Positions 36,529-48,495 of a DNA stretch of 64,000 nt are shown here, piece by piece. The notes under the pieces are model-generated. The model was given only the letters and a program-made list of their open reading frames with translations. It did no database searches and was not told where the DNA came from. Each line of letters starts with the position of its first letter. Position 1 is the stretch's first letter. This stretch comes from Diacronema lutheri (taxonomy: Eukaryota; Haptophyta; Pavlovophyceae; Pavlovales; Pavlovaceae), in assembly GCA_019448385.1 (NCBI GenBank), contig JAGTXO010000038.1, positions 124,001 through 188,000 of the forward strand, in the 5' to 3' direction. Made by a program: the position numbers and the translations under genes.

Positions 36529-39500
36529 ACCTGCGACTGTGCCTGCTGCACCTGCGACTGTGCCTGCTGTGCCTGCGACTGTGCCTGCTGTGCCTGCGAC
36601 TGTGCCTGCTGCACCTGCGACTGTGCCTGCTGTGCCTGCGACTGTGCCTGCGACTGCTGCGCGTGCACCTGCACGTCGCCACACCCACCGACAGCCATGG
36701 GACCAGCCGGTGTGTGCGGAGCGAGAAGGTGGCGCAGCTGCTGCAGCTGCGCGTGGTTGAGCGGCGCACGCGCGCCGCCGTGCGCGCCGGCGCCGCCCAG
36801 CAACGGCGGTGGCGCGCTCGGCGCGGCGGCCGGCGGGTGCGCGGCCTGCTGCGGCCGCTGCACGGGCGGTGCTGTCGGGCGCGCGCCAGCCGCGCCGTCG
36901 GCGCCGCGCGGGCCCCGGCCCCCATCGTCGGGCGCGGGGCTCGAACCGCCGCTTCCGCCGTAGGACCCACCTGCTGAGCCATCCGCGCCGCCGCTGCCCG
37001 AGCCGCCACTCGACCCCGAGCCGGCGCCGCCATGCGCAGTCGGAGTGCGCTCGCGCTCGGCGCCGCCGTCCGCGCGGTGGCGTTTGCTTGCGTTCGGCGA
37101 GTGCGATGGCGAGGTCGCGACCGGGTGAAGCAGCGCGATGGCGGTCGTGCGCGGCCGTTTGAGCTGCGGCGCGGCGTCGCCAGCGGTGGCGAGCTGCTCT
37201 GCGCTCTCGGACAGCTCGACGGCGCGCGATGGCGCGCCGCCGTCTCCGCGCGCGCCCGCCGTTGCGCCGCCGGGCGCGCCGGCGGCCAGCGCGCTGCTGC
37301 ACTCGCGTGGCGAGTCACGGCGGTGCTGCACGATGGCTGCCGACTGTGCACCGGCCGAGCCGCTGCCGCCAGAGCCGCCGGAGCCGCCGTCTGCGCCGCT
37401 CTGCGCGCCTGCGCTGCCGCTGCCGCTCCCGCCGCGCGCGCCGTCCGCGCTGGGCGACGCGCCGGCGCCGTCCAGGCCGTCGCCATCGGCGCGTCGCGCC
37501 GCCGCCGGCCGCGACGCGACGGCGGCGAAGCGGCGGCCAGCGCCGCCGCTCCGCCCGCCGTCGGCGCGCTCGGCTCGCGCACGCTGCTGCTGCGACGAGC
37601 TGCCAGCGGCGTGTGGGGCTTCATTCGAACCTGAACCATCGCCCGAGCCCGAGCCGTCATACCCGTCCTCGGGCACCGAGCCCGAACCGCCCGATCCGCC
37701 CGAGCCCTCGCCCCCAGAGCCGCCGTCGGCGTCGGCGTCTGCGCTGCCGCTCGCGTCGCGCCCGCTCCCCTCGCCGCCTGAGCCGTCGCGGCCGTCGCCA
37801 ATGTCGTCGCCGTCCACGCCCGCTGCGTGAGCCAGCGCACCGACGCCACGCCGCGCGCCACCACCGCCCTCCAGCGCCTCGCGCCGGCTCAAAGGGCCGA
37901 GGGGCAGCGGGTTTGTGAAATTGCGCTGCCAATGCGGCCTCGCGCCCACCGCCGCGCGCGCGGCGACGGCGGCGACGTGCTCGGTCGTGAGGGCGTCGTT
38001 GGCAATGCGCTGCGCGTGCTCGCCGCTGCCGCCGCTGCCGCCGCCGCTGCCGCCGCCACTGCCGCCGCCGCTCCCAGCGCCGCCGCCAGCACCGCCGCCG
38101 CCGCTCGGCGGGCCGGCAGCTGTGTCGGCACCGCCGGCGAGCGCGCCGGCCTGCGCGGCGGGCGCGCTCGCTGCACCGTCCGCCATGCTGACCGCCAAGC
38201 CGCGTGGCGCGCATCCATACGAGTAGGGCGCAACATTGTTGCAACTGCCGTCGCTGCCGCGTCGAAGTCCCAGACCCCAGCCCGGCCTGCTCGCGGAGTG
38301 AGGCGGCGGCATGGCGTGTGCGCCCGCGCCGCGCGCGCCCGCGGGCGGCGCGCAGCCGGCGGCGGGCGCAACGGTGGGCACGGCGGTGGGCGCGCACTGC
38401 GCCGCCGGTGCGCCGCCCGGCTGCTGCTGCTGCTGCAGACTCGCAGCTGACGCGGCGGCGACGAGGTCGGGAGGCGGCGCGCCCACACCGCCGCCGTTCG
38501 CGCCGTTGCATCCGCCCACGGCCGAGGGCGGCGGCATGGCACCGGGCTGCGCGAGCTGCTGCGGGCGGCCGGCAAGGATGGCGGACGCGTAGGCCGCAGG
38601 CGGAGGCGGAGGTGCAGCCGAGATCAGCGTCGGCAGCTGCGTGCGCACGGCGCCACGCAGCGGGCGAGCGGGCGAGCGGGCGTGAGCGGACCAGCGCACG
38701 GCGGCGCGACACGCGCGACACGCGCGACACGCGCGGGAACTCGGCACAGAGCGGCACGGAGCGGCACGGAGCGGCACGGAGCGGCACGGAGCGGCACAGA
38801 GCGGCACGGAGCGGCACAGAGCGGCACAGAGCGGCGTCCCACCTGCGGGATGGCAAGGCCGGAGAGCGCGGCGGCAAGCGCCTGCGCTGAGACGGTCTGG
38901 CCGGTGGATGCCGCAGTAAGTATGGGCAGCATGCGCTGCAAGAAGTGGAGCGCGGGCAGCACGGCGGCGGCAGCCGTCGCCGCGTCGGCCGCGCCCGACG
39001 GCTGCGCGGTCGTCTGCGCGCAGCCGCCTGCGGCCGGCGCGTCCGCCGCGGCGCCTCCGCTGAGCCCGAGCCCGACGGAGCGCTGCAGCCGCGCCTGCGT
39101 GAGCTCAAGGCCCGTGATGTGCGCGACGAGGTTCTCGCACGTGACGAGGCCGGCGACGCACGCAGGCTGTGCCGGTTGGATCGGCCGAGCGCCGCCGCCG
39201 CGCCCACCGCCGCTTCCGCCGCCGCAGGCAGATGAGCCGTGCGCCGAGCCGGCGTACGCAGGCGGGCCGGCGCAGCGCACCCGCGCGTGGTCGCGTGCGC
39301 CCGCGCACGTGCCGGCGGGCGCGAGCTGCGCGGGCTCCGCGCCCGGCGCGCGCGGCGATGCGCCGCCCGGCTGCACGGGACACGCGCAGCCGTGACTGCC
39401 TCGCGGCGCGCCGGCGGGCCGCGCGGCGGCGACGTCGTCGCACGCGGGCGGCGCGCCAGCCGAGCTTGCCGCGCCACCCGCCTCGTCCGAAAGCGCGCCA

Positions 39501-40095
39501 GTGCAGCTGCCGCTCGCCGCGCCCGCGCCGCCGCTGCTCGCCGCCGCGCCCGCGCCGGCGTGGTGTGGCACCGGCGCTTGCGTCGAGAGCGACGAGGCCT
39601 TGAGCTTTTGCCGCCGGTTCTGGAACCAGACCTGCACCGTGCGTGGTGACATGGCGAGGCTCTCCGCGAGCGACGTGCGCAGGCATTGGCCGGGCAGCGG
39701 CTCGGTCTCAAACACCTGGCACCCCGCGTGCGCACGGGACGGGCACATGGGTCACGCGGGCGTTGGGAAGCGGGTCGCGGGAGGGCCACGTGCGCCGCGC
39801 GCGCGCGCGCGCGCTAGAGTCCAATCCGCGCTGTCCCTAATATCCGCGCAACCGCGCCATCCCGCCGGTTCGGCCCGCGGCGACGCGGCGTGCGGCGCGG
39901 TCGGCGCACCTCCTCGAGCGCCATCAGCTGTGCGCGCGAGATCTTCGAGCGCTTGGTCGATTTGCGCTGGCCCGAGCCGCCGCGGCGCGAGCGCGCAGCG
40001 TCGGCGGTGGCGAGCACGGGCTCGCCGTCCGCACGGACGGTCGAGTCGCTCTCCGTGTGCAGCATGCCGCGGCGCTGCCCTGCAGGTGGTGTCAT
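35259..40095 (-). CDS. Homeodomain transcription factor with a very long low-complexity tail
   Basis: Three exons, 40095-39910, 39715-38843 and 38636-35259, total 1,478 residues in phase. The homeodomain (about residues 44-102) spans exons 1 and 2: RKSTKRSKISRAQLMALEE|V, then FETEPLPGQCLRTSLAESLA and MSPRTVQVWFQNRRQKLKA. Recognition-helix residues W48, F49, Q50, N51 and R53 are present and no three-residue TALE insertion is seen, so it should bind TAAT-type DNA. The remaining 1,370 residues have no recognised domain: Gly/Ser/Ala-rich runs, polyglutamine, QSQAQQAQSQVQQ repeats, acidic Asp/Gly segments, and a Cys/His-containing stretch near the end (DTSCKHGHCSTGPCGG). Such tails are common in activators, but that is inference. 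Exon 3 is one open frame of 3.4 kb. It diverges from the b5-dioxygenase gene. Confidence 0.88.
38738..38832. repeat. 10-bp GAGCGGCACR array in a homeobox-gene intron
   Basis: Eight or nine tandem copies of GAGCGGCACG/GAGCGGCACA lie in intron 38842-38637, next to a shorter GCGACACGC array (38703-38730). The array is just downstream of the donor CAG|GTGGGA on the sense strand. Confidence 0.9.
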
Positions 40096-40755: not shown

Positions 40756-43700
40756 ATGGCCGCGCCGCTCCGCGCGATCCGCGCGGCCGAGCTGCGCGAG
40801 CACACGTCGCGCGCCTCGCTTTGGCTCGTTCTCAACGGCCGCGTCTACGACGTGACCGCCTTCCAGTTTGAGCACCCGGGCGGCAAGCGCGTGCTCCTCG
40901 AGCACGCGGGCTCGGATGCGACGCACGCGTTCGTCTCGCTGCACTCGCCAAAGGCGTACGCGATGCTCGACCAGTTCTGCGTCGGTGTGTTTGCGCCCGA
41001 CGAGCCCGAATTCGACGCCACGCGCGCGCGCGCCACCGCCGAGACGCGCGCGCCGCCGGCGGACGGCGGCGACGGCGTGGCAGGCGCGAACGTCGCGCGC
41101 GCGGGCGCGCTCGCCGGCTCGCCCGTGCTCGCGCACGCGCGCGCGCCGCTCGCGCGCCTCGCCTCGCAATTTGCGGCGCCGTCCGACGGTGTCGCGCCGC
41201 GCGAGCGCGACTCGGGCGTGCCGCACCTCGCGCCGCCGGCGATGCTCTCGGCGCACGCGGCCGCGGCGCGCACGCCGTCGGCGCGCACCGACACGGCGAC
41301 AAGCTCGGAGACGGCGTCCGAGGAGGAGGTCGGCAGCGCGCATACCGACGTGCCGTCTGTGCGCGCCGGCGCCGACGCCGAAGCTGCCGCCGACGCCGAT
41401 GCCGCCGCGCGCGCCGCCGACGCCGAGCTGCTCTGCCCGCACCCGCTGCCCGCCGGCGCGCTCGCGTCGGGCGCACGCTGCCCGTTCGCGCCGCCGCCGC
41501 CGCGTTCGCCGAGCGCGAGCGCGCTCGCGCCGGCGCTGCCGGCCAGCGCGCTGTTGCGCGCACCACACGGCTCCGCCGGCGCGCCGCCCGGCGCGCCCGC
41601 CGGCGCGCCGCTCGCGCCGGGCGCCGCGGACGCGGCCTATGCGAGCGCACCGGCCGGTGCTATGAGCACGTCGCCCGGCGGCGGCGGCGGCGGCTGGCTG
41701 AGCGGGCTGGGCGTGGGCGGCGCCGGCCTCACCGGCCTGAGCGGCGGCGCGCTCGCCGGCGGCGCACTCGACGGCCGCCCCGCCGACGTGCTCACGCTGA
41801 CGGGCGGGATTCGCACGGAGGCGCCGCAGAGCGTGCCGCTCTGGGCGGTGGGCGAGCGCGGCTTCCTGCCCGTGCGCGACCCGCTCGTGCAGCTACCCGG
41901 CAGGTGCGCGCGCGCGCGCGCGCGCGCCCGAGCCGGCCGTCGCCCTGCCGTGCGCGCGCGTCCGCGCGCGCGCGCCGCCCCACACGCCCGCCCGCCGGCG
42001 CGCGCGCGCTCGCAGGTGGGCTCTGCTTGTCGAGCTCGCGCAGGAGATCCCGATGTACTGCGCGGATCGTACCGCGCAGCAGTCGCTCGCGAGCCACGCC
42101 GACGCGCTCGCGCAGCTCTGCACCGACGCGTCGATCGGCGAGCTCAACTCGGCCGAGACGCTCGAGCGCGCGCATTCCTTGTACGGCTACTTGGCGTCAG
42201 CTTACGTGCACGGCGATGCGGAGGCGGACGAGGCGGTGGGCGCCGCAGGCGGGGGCGGCGCTGACGCGCTTGTCGGCCGCGAGTTTGGCGGCGCGGCCGA
42301 CGAGGAGGGCGCTGGCGGCCTCGGCCTTGGCGGCGACGGCGCGCGCACGCCGCGGTCGGCGCGCGCGGCGGGCGGCGCGCTGCGCGTCGGCGCGGGCACG
42401 GGGGCGGGCGAAGCGGCGGTGGCGCCGCCGGCGGCCGGCAGGGGCGGGCGCCCATCCGTGCTGCCTGCGTGGCTCTCCGTGGGCTGGGTGAAGGTGGCCG
42501 AGCGATTGGGGCGCAGGCCGATGCTCGACTACGCGGCGTGCGTGCTGTACAACTGGGACCGAGTGAGCTCGCGCGTGCGCAGTCGCCGCCGCCGCTCATG
42601 CTGCGCCTCCACCCTTGCCCCGCGGTCAAGAGGGGCCGAGCGAGCTCGCGCGCGCGGCGCGCGTGGCGCGCACGCGCCTCGCCGACGGCGCGACTCGCAC
42701 CACCTCGCCTCCCTTCCATCCCGCCCCCGGTGGCGGTGCGCGCGTCCGCGGACAGGTCGACCGTCTCGGCCCCATCTCGATGAGTAACGTTCGGCTGCTC
42801 AACCGATTCACCGGCCTCGTCGACGAGGAGTGGTTCTTCAAGACGCATATCGTCATCGAGTCTGAGGCGGCGGGGGTCGTGCACGCGCTGCTGCGCGGGC
42901 TCGACGCACTCGGCGGCGGCGGCGGCGGCGCGAGCGGCGGGCCAGGCTGCGCGGGCGCGCCCGACCCCGAGGCACTGCTCCTCTCCTTGCGCGCACTCGA
43001 GGGCGCGCTCTGGCGCGTTGCGCGCGTGTGCCTGCCGATCATGTTTGAGCGGGCGGAGGGGCAGGGCGCCCTGTGCGACTATTCGATGTTCTACAACCGA
43101 CTGCGCCAATTCATTGGTGGCTGGGAGCTCGCATACGAAGGCGTCGAGCACGGGCCCTTTGGCGGCGGTCGGACGGTGCGCCTCGCCGGACCGTCGGGCG
43201 CAATGTCCGCTCTGCTGCCGACGGTGGACGCGTTCCTTGGCATCGGCATGAGCCACAAGGCGCTGCACACGCTGCTCACCGACTTTGAGGCCTACATGCC
43301 CACCGAGCACTCCCGCTTCATCCGCGCGGTGCGCGACCACCGACCCAAGCTGCGCGCCTACCTTGTCGGGCTGCTGCACGCGCAGGACAAGTCGCAGCCG
43401 CCGCTGCCGCTGCCGCAGCAGCAGCAGCAGCAGCAGCAGCTGCCCGACGCAGCGGCGGCGGCCGTGCGGGCCACGCCGACTGATGGGTGCGAGGCCGACG
43501 CGGATGCGCTCGTCTCCACGTACAACGAGTGCATCAACCGCGTCCTCGACTTTCGGTGCGCGCGGCGCGGCGCGAGGCGCGCGCGCGCCCGGCGCGGCGC
43601 GGCACGCGCCGCTCACGCGGCGCCAACGGCGCGCGGCGGCGCGCGCGCGTGCGTCGCAGGTGGCGCCACTTCCAGCTCGTGCAGAAGTACATCATCGACC

Positions 43701-46000
43701 AGGCGCGCGCGACCGACGGCAGCGGCGCGCCGGGCGGCGCGCGGCGCGCGCGCGGCTGCCCGATGGGCACGGGCGGCACGCCAGCGGTAGAGTACCTGCA
43801 CCAGCACATCCACGACACGGAGGTTGCGCGGATTCGCCGGCCGCGCCCCACCGCCACCGCCGGCGGCTCAGCGAGCGCGTCGCCGCTCGTCATTGGCGGG
43901 AGCGCCGGCGGCTCGGCGTCCGGCGGAAGCGGCGGCGGGGGCGTCATGCTGCACGCCGCCGCGGCGGACGGCGGCGGCGCGGCGCAGCTGCTCGCGCCCT
44001 TTGCGCTGAGCGCGGCGGACTCTGCGCGGATGGCGAGCATCGAAGCATCGGCATCGGAAATGTGGGCCCTCACCGGGCCGAACGGCCTCTTGCCGACACA
44101 CGAGCCGCTGCTCTGGCGGACGCCGGCGGATGCGCCAGGCGGCGATGGCGGGTTTGGCGTGCTCGTCACGCTCTCGCGCGCGATCCCGTCGCTCTCGGCG
44201 GGGACGGGCCTCTTCAAATCGCTCGTCGAGCGCCATTTGCCCGCCGTCTCGCGATGCTCCGATCTCGCGCGCGGCGGTCAACTCCTCCGCACGGCACACG
44301 AGCGCGAGCGAGCGCGCGCGCTATGCGCGCACGTGTGCGCCGCGTACGTCCACTCGTCGCACGCGCTGCGCCGCCCCCTCGAGTGGGTCGAGCACCTGCC
44401 GCCGGGAGATGTTGATGGTGCGCTCAGCGCGCCGTCGGCGGCGGCGAGCGCCGCCGGCGGCGCGAACGCGGCGGGCGGCGCGGCGGGCGGCGCGGCGGGC
44501 GGCGCGGCGGGCGGCGCGGCCGGCGCGCTGCAGAACGGCGGCGTGCACGCGCTGCCCGCGCCCCTCTCTGCGCTCTTCACCAGCCTCTCGCGGCTCGTCG
44601 ATCGCCCCGCGCGTCTCGACTTTGTGGACGTCGCGCTCTACAACTGGACGTTGCAGCCCCTCCCACCCGCACAGCGGCGCGGCGCGGACGGCGCGGACGG
44701 CGGCGCGCCGAGCGACGGCGGCGCGGGCGCGGGCGCGACGGAGGCGGTGACGATGGCAAACGTGCACCGGCTGCGCCTCGTCTGCCGCTTCCTCGCCATC
44801 CCGGAGGAGGATGCGTTTTGGCGGTTACACATTGCCCTCGAGGCAGAGGCGCGCGCGATGATCGCGGCAGTTGCGCACGGGCAGGCGGCGATGTCGCACA
44901 AGGACACGCGCGCGCTCATCGGTGCGCAGCGCGCGCGCGCGCCGCGAGGCCCGTCCGCGCCGGGCGTGGCGACGTGTTGCGCCGATCTTGTCTCGCCCGC
45001 GCCCATCGCCCGCGCGCCTCGCCCGCCGCCGCGGCGCGCAGACTCGCTCGACCATCTGGCGCTCGCGCTCGCCAAGTTGTCCGAGTGCCACGCGACGCTC
45101 TTTGCGGACGGAGGGCGGCGTGACGTTGTGCTCGCGCGCCGGCTGCGTCCGTTCCTGCAGGCTGGGATCGGCGAACTGCAGGACATGCACTTGGGGTGTC
45201 TCTACTATTCGCCAAGGTGACGCTGGCTGCGCGCCTTTCGCACACCGCCCGTCGCACTGCACCCCCGTTCCCCTCTCCGCCGCGCGACGCGCGCGCACGC
45301 GCCGCCACCGCCACCGCCACCGCCGCCGCCGCCACCCCCACCCCCACCCCCCCCACCGCCCCCACCGCCCCCTTAACCGACGCCATCCCGCGCGCGCGCG
45401 GTGCGCAGGTCGGCGATTCTGCCGATGGCGTTGCTCTTCCTCGGCGTGCGGCACGCGGAGACGCACCCGCTGCTCCGCGCGATTCAAAAGAGCGTCCGCT
45501 CGATGCCCGCGCCGCACCGCCACTTCCTCGCGTCCCTTGAGCGGCCGGGCGGCGGCGATGTGCGCTCGCACCTGCACGCCATCGCCGACCGCACGGCGGT
45601 GCACGAGCTCGCGCTGCTCGAGGCGGGGTACAACGGGTGCATCGAGGTGTGCGCCTCGCGTTTGTCCGTCTCCCCGCCGCATCGCCGCCTCCGCCGGCCG
45701 CGCGCTGCGCTCACGCCGCGTTCGGCGTCGCAACCCGTCGCGTCCCGTCCCCTCCCCCATGCACGCATGCGATGTGCAGGAGCTGCTGCGCTACTGCTCG
45801 CGCCGCTCGCACCTCGTGTGCAAGGCCTTCCCGCACATCGCCGAGAGCTTCCGAGAGTGCGCGCCGCGCCGCGCGCGCCGCGCGCCGCGCGCCAGCCGAC
45901 CGCGCGCGACACGGCGGCGTTGCGCTCCTTCTTGGCCGCAGCGGCGCTGCGCACGTCGCGCGGGATGCGGCGTGCGCACACGTGCCAATCCCCCCTCCCC

Positions 46001-46033
<33 letters not shown>

Positions 46034-46493
46034 ACCCCCCCCCACCTCTCGCAGGTACTCGCACCGCAAGCTCGAGTCGGCCATCCACCAGGCGCGATGC
46101 AAGCTGATGCTGCAGAGGCGCGTGCACGGCGGGCCCGCGATGGGCGCAGGCGGCGCGGGCGGACGCGGCGCGCCCGCGCACACCGGTGGCTCGCGCTCGT
46201 CGGACGCGCTGCCCGGCTCGAGCTCGGTCGAGTCGCTCTCGCTCGGCCGCTGGTCCCACCCGCCCTTGCTGCCGCCGTCTGACAGCCTCGACTCGTCCGC
46301 GGGCGGCGCGGGCGGCGCAGGCACGCTTGGCGGAGCGTACGGCGCGTACGCGCGCGGCTGGCGCGACGAGCCCGCATCGACCGTTGATTCGCCCGCACTC
46401 GACTTGCTGCCGGCGCGCGTGCTCGCCGCCGACTCGGCGCGCGACTCGGACGGCGGCGCGTCCGTGCCCGCTGGGACCCCCGACCACCCCTAG
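40756..46493 (+). CDS. Cytochrome b5 / double indoleamine 2,3-dioxygenase fusion (1,561 aa)
   Basis: Eight exons, 40756-41903, 42016-42562, 42756-43555, 43660-44921, 45042-45216, 45409-45646, 45780-45856 and 46055-46493, all in phase. Residues 1-75 are a cytochrome b5 domain: LNGRVYDVTAFQFEHPGGKR, with the second heme histidine in SLHSPKAYAML. A disordered linker follows. IDO module 1 (about 355-890) shows GFLPVRDPLVQLPG, ALYNWDR-like VLYNWDR, DEEWFFKTHIVIE, FYNRLRQFIGGW (distal-pocket Arg), GPSGAMSALLPTVDAFLGI, the proximal heme histidine in FRWRHFQLVQKYI, and GTGGTP. IDO module 2 (about 950-1430) repeats the order: GLLPTHEPL, VALYNWTLQPL, DAFWRLHIALEAE, RRLRPFL, SAILPMALLFLGVRH, SMPAPHRHFLASLE, and SRRSHLV with the proximal histidine. 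IDO oxidises tryptophan to N-formylkynurenine. Module 1 looks catalytic; module 2 lacks GGW and GTGGT and is more diverged. Confidence 0.9.
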
Positions 46494-46694: not shown

Positions 46695-48200
46695 TTACTC
46701 GTCGATGCCCGGGATGTGCGCCGTCCACACGCCCTTGAGAAGGATGGTCTTGGGCGCCTTGGAGCCCATGTCAGTGTCCGACGCCTGCTTCGAGACGAAC
46801 GTGCCGCCAAAGTCGCCGGTCGCGGCGTCGACGCCCGTCACGGTGAGCTCGGTCGAGCCGCTGAGCACCTCAAACTTCTTGTTGTTCTCCTTGAAGAGCT
46901 CGTCGTCGCCACCCGCCTGCAGCGCCGGAAGCGCGACGGCCTGGTCGTAGCCCGTCGTCGTGCCGCGGCCCTTGGGGTCGAGGAAGAGGCCGGTGCGGTA
47001 CGAGGGCACGATGTAGTCGCCCGACAGCTTGAGGCCCGGCTTGACCGAGCCCTCGGTGCCCTTTGCGATCAGGCCCTTCACCGTGAAGAGGTAGGGCACG
47101 CGCTCGCCGCCGGGCGTCTGCACAGTCGAGGCGGCGTAGTCGATGCCTGCCACCATGCACGCGCGCGCGGTCGGTTGGTCAGGCGGTGAGCCGCGAGCGC
47201 CACGCTGGGGCGCATTGCACCGCTGGCCCCCAACGCGCACCCGACCCGGCCGGCCGCGCGCGACCCGACCGACGCGTGACCGGTGTCACAAGGGCCGCGC
47301 GCGTGCGGCAAGACGCGTGCGCCCTCGGCGCGCGCGCGGGGGTCAGGCGCGGCTGCGCGCACCATCCTTCTCCTTGAGCACGACCTTGCCGCCATCGGTG
47401 ACGAGGTCGCCCTCAACCATCGCGAGCGTGCCCGTCTGGCGCGTCATCATCTGCGCGCCCATCGACCAGGCCAGACGACGGGGGGGGGGGGGGGGGGGGG
47501 CACGTGTGCACACGGCCGCGTCGGCGGAGAGGGGAGCGCGGAAACGAGGGTGAGCGCGTGGCGAGGAGCACGGCGCGCGAGGCCACAGCGCGCCTCGCCC
47601 CGCGGAACTCGTCTGCTCCTGGCGGCCGCCGCCCACGCCAAACGGAAGGCCGTCCGCGTCGAGCCCCGCGCCCGAGCCGCGCCGCGGCGGGCGGCACGCC
47701 GCGCGTGCGGGCGGCCACGCCCGTCGGCGCGCGAGATGCCAAGGCGCGTTCCTGCGTAGCGCTCCGCTCCAGCGCGCTGCCAGCGCGCGCACCTTGGAGG
47801 GGATGATCTCCGTCTTGGTGACGCCCTTCTTGTCGGTCACCGTCTCGAGGATCGAGACCTCGGTCGGCTGCATGCAGAACTCGTCAAACTTGTTGAGCTT
47901 GCCGCCGAGGTTGATGTTGCCCGCACCGGGGGTCACATCCGGGCACTTGTTCGCCAGGCCCGTCCCCTTGATCTGGTCGTACGTCAGCGAGTTGTACGTC
48001 TCCTTCGACAGCGCCTGCGCCGCGTCCGGCGCGACAAGCGCGGCCGCAAAGACGGCGGCAAGCGCGGCGGCCGAGGCGGACTCGGCGGCGCGCGACACGG
48101 CGGCCTTCGCGCTTGCGCGGAACGCCGACTGCACGCCCGTCTGCAGCGCGCTGGCGCCGGCGACGAGGGCGAGGGAAGCGACAAGAACGCGGCGCGGCAT
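46695..48200 (-). CDS. psbO: Photosystem II oxygen-evolving enhancer protein 1 (PsbO), nucleus-encoded, plastid-targeted
   Basis: Three exons, 48200-47793, 47450-47363 and 47146-46695, give 315 residues in phase. The leader is bipartite: signal peptide MPRRVLVASLALVAGASA, a Ser/Ala/Arg transit region starting LQTGVQSAFRASAK, then a thylakoid signal (ALAAVFAAALVAPDAAQA). The mature protein has YDQIKGTGLANKCPDV, FCMQPTEVSILETVTDKKG, TRQTGTLAMVEGDL, ERVPYLFTVKGLIAKG, VPSYRTGLFLDPKGRGTTTG, SDTDMGSKAPKTILLKGVW. It stabilises the manganese cluster at the lumenal face of photosystem II. The signal peptide shows the plastid lies behind an ER-type membrane, as in haptophytes, cryptophytes and ochrophytes; the residue after the cleavage site is not the usual Phe. 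Intron 1 contains a poly-G run (poly-C in sense) at 47480-47500, and reading through it gives an open frame that should not be taken as the gene. Confidence 0.98.
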
Positions 48201-48495
48201 CGCTCCTGAAGCCCGCTGTTAATTAACTTTCTTTCGCGTAAAGGCCCGAAAGCTCCTGAAGGTGAGCAGGCTGAGTGGCGCTCCGCGGAAGCATCACAGG
48301 GCGCCGCGGTGCTCGAGCGGGCGGCACGGCGTGGGTCAGGCCGTCTGCCGCGATCACGGTACTGCACGTCCGCGCCACGAGCGCCCAGGCGCGACCGACT
48401 CCCGCCACTCCGACGATCCGTCGAGCGGGCAGTGTGCGCCGGACAAACATGGGAAAAAGTCCGGGCTGGGGGTTCTCCGAGCGGGAAGAAAAGTC
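48201..48495. promoter_or_regulatory. 295-bp divergent interval, PsbO/DDT-PHD gene
   Basis: This contains TTAATTAA near the PsbO start and two GCTCCTGAA copies (48203 and 48252), but no recognised light-response or TATA element. The A-rich GAAGAAAAGTC lies immediately before the DDT-PHD start codon. Confidence 0.4.

Follow-up and report, generated by a model that had tools for sequence, protein, structure and literature searches.

A predicted cytochrome b5 fusion with two indoleamine 2,3-dioxygenase-like modules in Diacronema lutheri and its relatives

A predicted gene of Diacronema lutheri encodes, from the N- to the C-terminus of one chain, a cytochrome b5 domain, an indoleamine 2,3-dioxygenase (IDO) module and a second IDO-like module. 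It lies on the forward strand at 40756–46493 of the window (i.e. the whole stretch of 64,000 nucleotides that was analysed) and comprises eight exons, which are in frame, encode 1561 aa and hold a sole stop codon at the end. Judged from sequence comparison, the b5-IDO-IDO fusion is real and common to relatives. Our overall reading, which we hold to be probable, is that b5 feeds electrons to IDO module 1 and that module 2 is a pseudo-IDO. The question of which reductant serves IDO in cells is long-standing; natural b5-IDO fusions provide genetic evidence for the pairing of the two as well as a ready-made protein for measuring it, and the layout of the family hints at how IDO enzymes obtain their starting electron. 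The alga is used in aquaculture, and in it the gene is also a candidate for opening the route to NAD+. A conserved second module without heme ligand would exemplify the change of a heme enzyme into a pseudo-enzyme.

Relatives (P0001–P0065) were collected in two overlapping searches (19 and 60 sequences). The D. lutheri protein and P0001–P0046 form the alignment of 47 rows used for all counts (including P0027, a poor gene model), with P0047–P0065, which are shorter or of other architecture, left out. The features of the gene, in window coordinates, are as follows.

40756–41903, 42016–42562, 42756–43555, 43660–44921 (+): exons 1 to 4 of the predicted model
45042–45216, 45409–45646, 45780–45856, 46055–46493 (+): exons 5 to 8 of the predicted model
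40783–40992 (+): cytochrome b5 domain, residues 10–79 (Pfam PF00173, E 4.7e-21; phmmer to solved cytochromes b5, best E 3.9e-18)
40873–40875 (+): b5 axial ligand His40 (HPGG), from alignment
40942–40944 (+): b5 axial ligand His63 (HSP), from alignment
40993–41832 (+): low-complexity linker from b5 to module 1, residues 80–359, within exon 1
41833–43834 (+): IDO module 1, residues 360–890, introns 1–3 inside, likely catalytic (PF01231; phmmer to IDO1/IDO2 structures, E 1.3e-18)
43188–43208 (+): distal-loop motif GPSGAMS, residues 710–716, aligned with the GGSAGQSS loop of IDO1 and conserved in the family
43667–43669 (+): proximal heme ligand His835 (FRWRH), H in 46 of 47 rows, N in P0029
43766–43780 (+): GTGGT loop, residues 868–872, from alignment
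43835–44056 (+): linker from module 1 to module 2, within exon 4
44057–46121 (+): IDO-like module 2, residues 965–1438, introns 4–7 inside, likely non-catalytic (PF01231; hhalign to module 1)
45804–45806 (+): Arg1399 (CSRR) where module 1 has its proximal His (R 44, K 2 and gap 1 of 47 rows)
46122–46490 (+): low-complexity C-terminal tail, residues 1439–1561, predicted model
46491–46493 (+): stop codon, predicted model

An earlier note, made from the letters of this DNA, had described a b5 domain with both heme-ligand histidines and two successive IDO-like modules in one chain, joined through eight exons in exact phase. All of this is borne out by the in-frame model, whose seven introns (104–198 bases) are all GT-AG, and by the domain search proposed there, in which both PF00173 and PF01231 matched (the latter with E 1.7e-66 and 225.1 bits for the whole protein, in three stretches, at a cut-off of 26). 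IDO and Cyt-b5 were the only Pfam matches of the whole protein up to E 10.

Module 1 and its proposed electron supply

Module 1 resembles IDO1/IDO2 (PF01231; PDB 6e46, 9uz1) in its proximal histidine, in equivalents of Arg231, Phe226 and Ser263, and in the GTGG loop. Its fold is probably alike as well, judged from the predicted structure of the relative P0003, which matches IDO. It differs from them in overall sequence (about 25% identity), in a His at the place of Ser167 and in the GPSGAMS form of its distal loop, and the D. lutheri protein joins this module to b5 and to another IDO module that lacks the heme ligand. Since module 2 has no proximal His, only module 1 looks catalytic. The bis-His b5 is of the kind found in flavocytochrome b2, SCS7 fatty acid hydroxylase and sulfite oxidase, b5-fused enzymes which are also among the PDB matches of the domain.

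In the available parts of three publications (PMC13142367, PMC5350241, PMC4191572), b5 is reported or cited as reducing human IDO in cells and yeast, mouse IDO2 is described as more active with b5, and the in vivo reductant is doubted. The portion available of the first of these, a 2026 preprint, calls the in vivo role of the proposed IDO-reducing systems, b5 included, still unclear (PMC13142367). Bacterial proteins combine the same two partners: IDO and b5 occur in one chain in all six candidates scanned (P0063, P0064, P0065, L027, L028 and L029), five of which contain an NAD-binding reductase part and four a match to FAD_binding_1 (two above cut-off). Three of them were located as follows.

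L027:6025–9930: IDO-reductase-b5 fusion of a Polyangiaceae metagenome-assembled genome
L028:5956–9342: IDO-reductase-b5 fusion of a Chloroflexi metagenome-assembled genome
L029:5974–14344: open reading frame of Chitinophaga solisilvae with IDO, FAD/NAD reductase parts and b5

The Chitinophaga fusion lies 38 bases before trpE, which is followed by trpG, trpD, trpC and trpB-like genes. The bacterial IDO-reductase-b5 proteins (P0063, P0065 and those of Polyangiaceae, Chloroflexi and Chitinophaga) share with the protist proteins the union of IDO and b5 in one chain, but their order is IDO, NAD-binding reductase, b5, they have one IDO module, and the three included in the tree fall on a separate, long branch away from the protist modules. 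In our reading, the protist and bacterial proteins probably arose by separate fusion events that serve a common electron path. Against this weigh the protist chain, in which no reductase was matched, the 18 of 47 rows with no b5 seen, and the single initiating electron that the dioxygenase reaction is said to need (PMC5350241). Because b5 reduces human IDO in the cited work and separate IDO-reductase-b5 fusions exist in bacteria, the best reading of the b5 domain, by analogy, is that of a tethered electron donor.

A separate NAD(P)H-dependent reductase would then re-reduce b5, which would pass one electron to the heme of module 1 and so make it ferrous and able to bind O2; the same electron supply could rescue this heme after autoxidation. 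The long linker may let b5 swing between reductase and IDO and, more tentatively, module 2 might assist module 1 structurally, by docking or by sensing tryptophan. The proposal of the earlier note that the fusion supplies the donor in the same chain is thus supported as far as b5 is concerned, but it extends to one apparently catalytic module only, and the description as a self-sufficient enzyme did not hold. Pfam finds no flavin or NAD(P)H reductase in the chain (up to E 10), so b5 must be reduced by another protein, and complete self-sufficiency was rejected. A tethered donor may also not be strictly required, since in the accessible part of one source these dioxygenases are said to need a single initiating reduction only (PMC5350241).

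The earlier note took the three-part architecture to be one that is not known to have been described. No described b5-IDO fusion was found in the open-licence PMC literature searched, and a description may exist elsewhere; PF01231 and PF00173 already stand together in domain tables of public proteins, and the architecture is not unique to D. lutheri.

Probable substrate and the candidate route from tryptophan to NAD+

The D. lutheri assembly searched for the pathway has 43,492,796 bases in 103 contigs; the available text on the published assembly of strain NIVA-4/92 gives 43,502,671 bp, 103 contigs, 73.25% GC and a BUSCO completeness of 80.8% (PMC8379373). In an exon-wise search of the whole genome, IDO matched two exons, both of the b5-IDO-IDO gene. 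No match to PF03301 (tryptophan 2,3-dioxygenase, TDO) was found in the genome or in the Pfam table of the b5-IDO-IDO protein, and NadA was not found in a genome search that detected 12 of 14 controls; of seven places matched by nadB, the best is SdhA. Among later enzymes, 3-hydroxyanthranilate dioxygenase (3-HAO) exceeded its NCBIfam cut-off (TIGR03037, 178.6 vs 145.95) and quinolinate phosphoribosyltransferase (QPRT) is present. Kynureninase matched two neighbouring exons with 241.8 and 93 bits, neither of which reaches the cut-off of 246.4; the first scores 241.5 for kynureninase vs 31 for the next family. With this being the only IDO found, TDO and NadA not detected, and kynureninase, 3-HAO and QPRT present, the b5-IDO-IDO gene is, on balance, the strongest candidate for starting the route from tryptophan to NAD+, and we infer tryptophan as its substrate from this pathway context.

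Several observations weigh against a b5-fed tryptophan dioxygenase. The search missed module 2, so another divergent IDO could escape detection, and the BUSCO completeness is a further limit. Six of the 22 FAD_binding_3 matches were scanned, with none identified as a kynurenine monooxygenase, and no formamidase of PF04199 was matched in the genome; these searches therefore recovered part of the kynurenine pathway. In the part of the text available for PMC4217691, action on tryptophan is doubted for the haptophyte and stramenopile IDO branches, and very slow rates on it are given for enzymes characterised from the branches to which the Emiliania huxleyi IDO also belongs. Of these divergent branches (E. 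huxleyi, Aureococcus, labyrinthulids), the Aureococcus IDO (P0027) is a tandem-IDO relative; in the text of that paper the words "cytochrome", "tandem" and "fused" are absent, and "fusion" occurs once, in the reference list (PMC4217691).

The protein could instead be a b5-fed oxygenase for another substrate (indole or another aromatic compound), perhaps a monooxygenase needing electrons at every turnover, as in the wider superfamily. A standing electron supply would suit such an electron-consuming reaction, and the low tryptophan rates just cited are in line with it, as is the distal loop, whose GPSGAMS diverges from the GGSAGQSS type. We nevertheless regard this as unlikely: the protein retains the pocket residues and the GTGG loop, and no other tryptophan-cleaving candidate was found, yet kynureninase and 3-HAO are present.

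A broader version of the preferred reading, b5-fed module 1 with tryptophan as substrate, would account for the slow enzymes too. The b5-IDO fusion may have arisen at least twice (as b5, IDO, pseudo-IDO in protists and as IDO, reductase, b5 in bacteria) because b5 is the native IDO donor generally; the "slow" divergent IDOs may have been assayed without their donor, and module 2 would be heme-free and either tryptophan-sensing or b5-docking. We offer this combination tentatively, with somewhat less than even confidence.

The tandem-IDO family and its second module

The same architecture, which the earlier note had suggested looking for in other haptophyte genomes, recurs in the family, so that a one-species oddity was rejected. 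A b5 domain with both axial histidines is present in 29 of the 47 tandem-IDO rows, D. lutheri included, and dinoflagellates are among them (e.g. Cladocopium goreaui). In the other 18 rows no b5 was seen, among them those of the pelagophytes Aureococcus and Chrysophaeum. Relatives with the parts as separate genes, which the note had named as counting against the fusion, are thus matched in part by these rows, and an in-chain b5 would not always be needed. Several of these 18 sequences start inside or after the expected place of b5 (P0001, from the chlorarachniophyte Gymnochlora, as well as P0012, P0027, P0044 and others), which makes the share of 29 in 47 a lower bound.

N-termini in the family are diverse. 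A hydrophobic stretch (mean hydropathy above 1.6 over 19 residues) takes the place of b5 in 8 of the 18 rows without it and precedes b5 in 13 of the 29 rows with it. Seven further b5-IDO-IDO proteins (P0006, P0008, P0009, P0011, P0016, P0018 and P0020) start with MGN, a start suggestive of myristoylation. Membrane placement thus seems common in the family (7 MGN rows plus 21 others with a hydrophobic stretch); the D. lutheri protein has neither of the two.

These N-termini bear on the role of b5, which might be not a donor but a heme store or a module for heme delivery, docking or targeting. The hydrophobic stretches in place of b5 and the MGN starts would fit an N-terminus that mainly serves placement. 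Against this stand the retention of both axial histidines in all 29 b5-bearing rows, a mark of electron-transfer b5, and the NAD-binding reductase that most of the scanned bacterial fusions add to IDO and b5, and we consider such a role rather improbable.

Module 2 is a genuine relative of IDO. On its own (500 aa) it matched PF01231 with E 2.8e-14 and 53.2 bits (cut-off 26), and a profile alignment of the two modules by hhalign gave E 1.1e-50 (the incomplete module 2 of P0016, 328 aa, was excluded from the module-2 profile). Within an ungapped stretch of this alignment H835 stands opposite R1399. The earlier note had given each module its own proximal-heme histidine; this is right for module 1 (H835), but module 2 has R1399 at that place, and the nearby H1401, two residues further on, is not conserved (R 13, H 11, Q 10, E 8, A 3, D 1, gap 1). 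The GPSGAMS loop is not kept in module 2 (in the family alignment, and with a gap there in hhalign), and a search of the 22 module-2 sequences that entered the tree gave no GTGGT. For module 2 of P0003 an all-helical structure is predicted; among the matches listed in the structure search with P0003, only module 1 was covered. We infer that module 2 looks like a conserved pseudo-IDO. That both modules bind heme and are catalytic, with b5 feeding both, could draw on the PF01231 match of module 2 and on the histidine at +2 (present in 11 of 47 rows, D. lutheri included); it is very unlikely given R or K in all 46 rows with a residue in the ligand column, the variable +2 place and the two lost loops, and two catalytic IDO modules were rejected because the heme ligand is lost in module 2.

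A tree of 79 rows was built with 22 of the 47 family rows (midpoint root, for drawing only). Modules 1 form one group (support 100/99, 22 rows) and modules 2 another (100/100, 22 rows), by which a recent module duplication was rejected; the tandem predates the split of the sampled lineages or has moved between them. In addition, 282 relatives of single-module size were found (120 of the 282 among the matches listed). Two other relatives, P0057 and P0058, have IDO fused to an alpha/beta hydrolase of the BD-FAE type, possibly a formamidase for the next pathway step, and P0057 also contains CN_hydrolase. P0059 combines IDO and a chlorophyll a/b-binding protein in one model, which may be a gene-model error.

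Integrity of the gene model and neighbouring genes

Exon 1 holds b5 together with the first part of module 1, and exon 4 holds the last part of module 1 together with the first part of module 2; neither junction therefore depends on splice prediction. Third-position GC of the exons is 0.81–0.96, and one of four non-coding control stretches had a similar positional bias, so that this measure gives weak support to the gene model and no proof that the linker is coding. The linker region is long: 359 residues precede module 1 in the D. lutheri protein vs 107 in P0003. That neighbouring genes or frames were merged by a model predicted from genomic DNA, in which long open frames are common at about 73% GC and the linker is not secured by positional GC, is scarcely credible given both junctions inside single exons and the transcript-named relatives P0003, P0018 and P0046, which show b5 and both IDO modules in the same order and in one frame.

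A PDB search with L018 returned nothing useful. The upstream neighbour gene (window 38624–39751, − strand) contains a homeodomain (PF00046, E 1.1e-10). On the other side, at 46695–48218 and on the opposite (−) strand, lies a gene for PsbO (MSP, PF01716), matched in two open frames.
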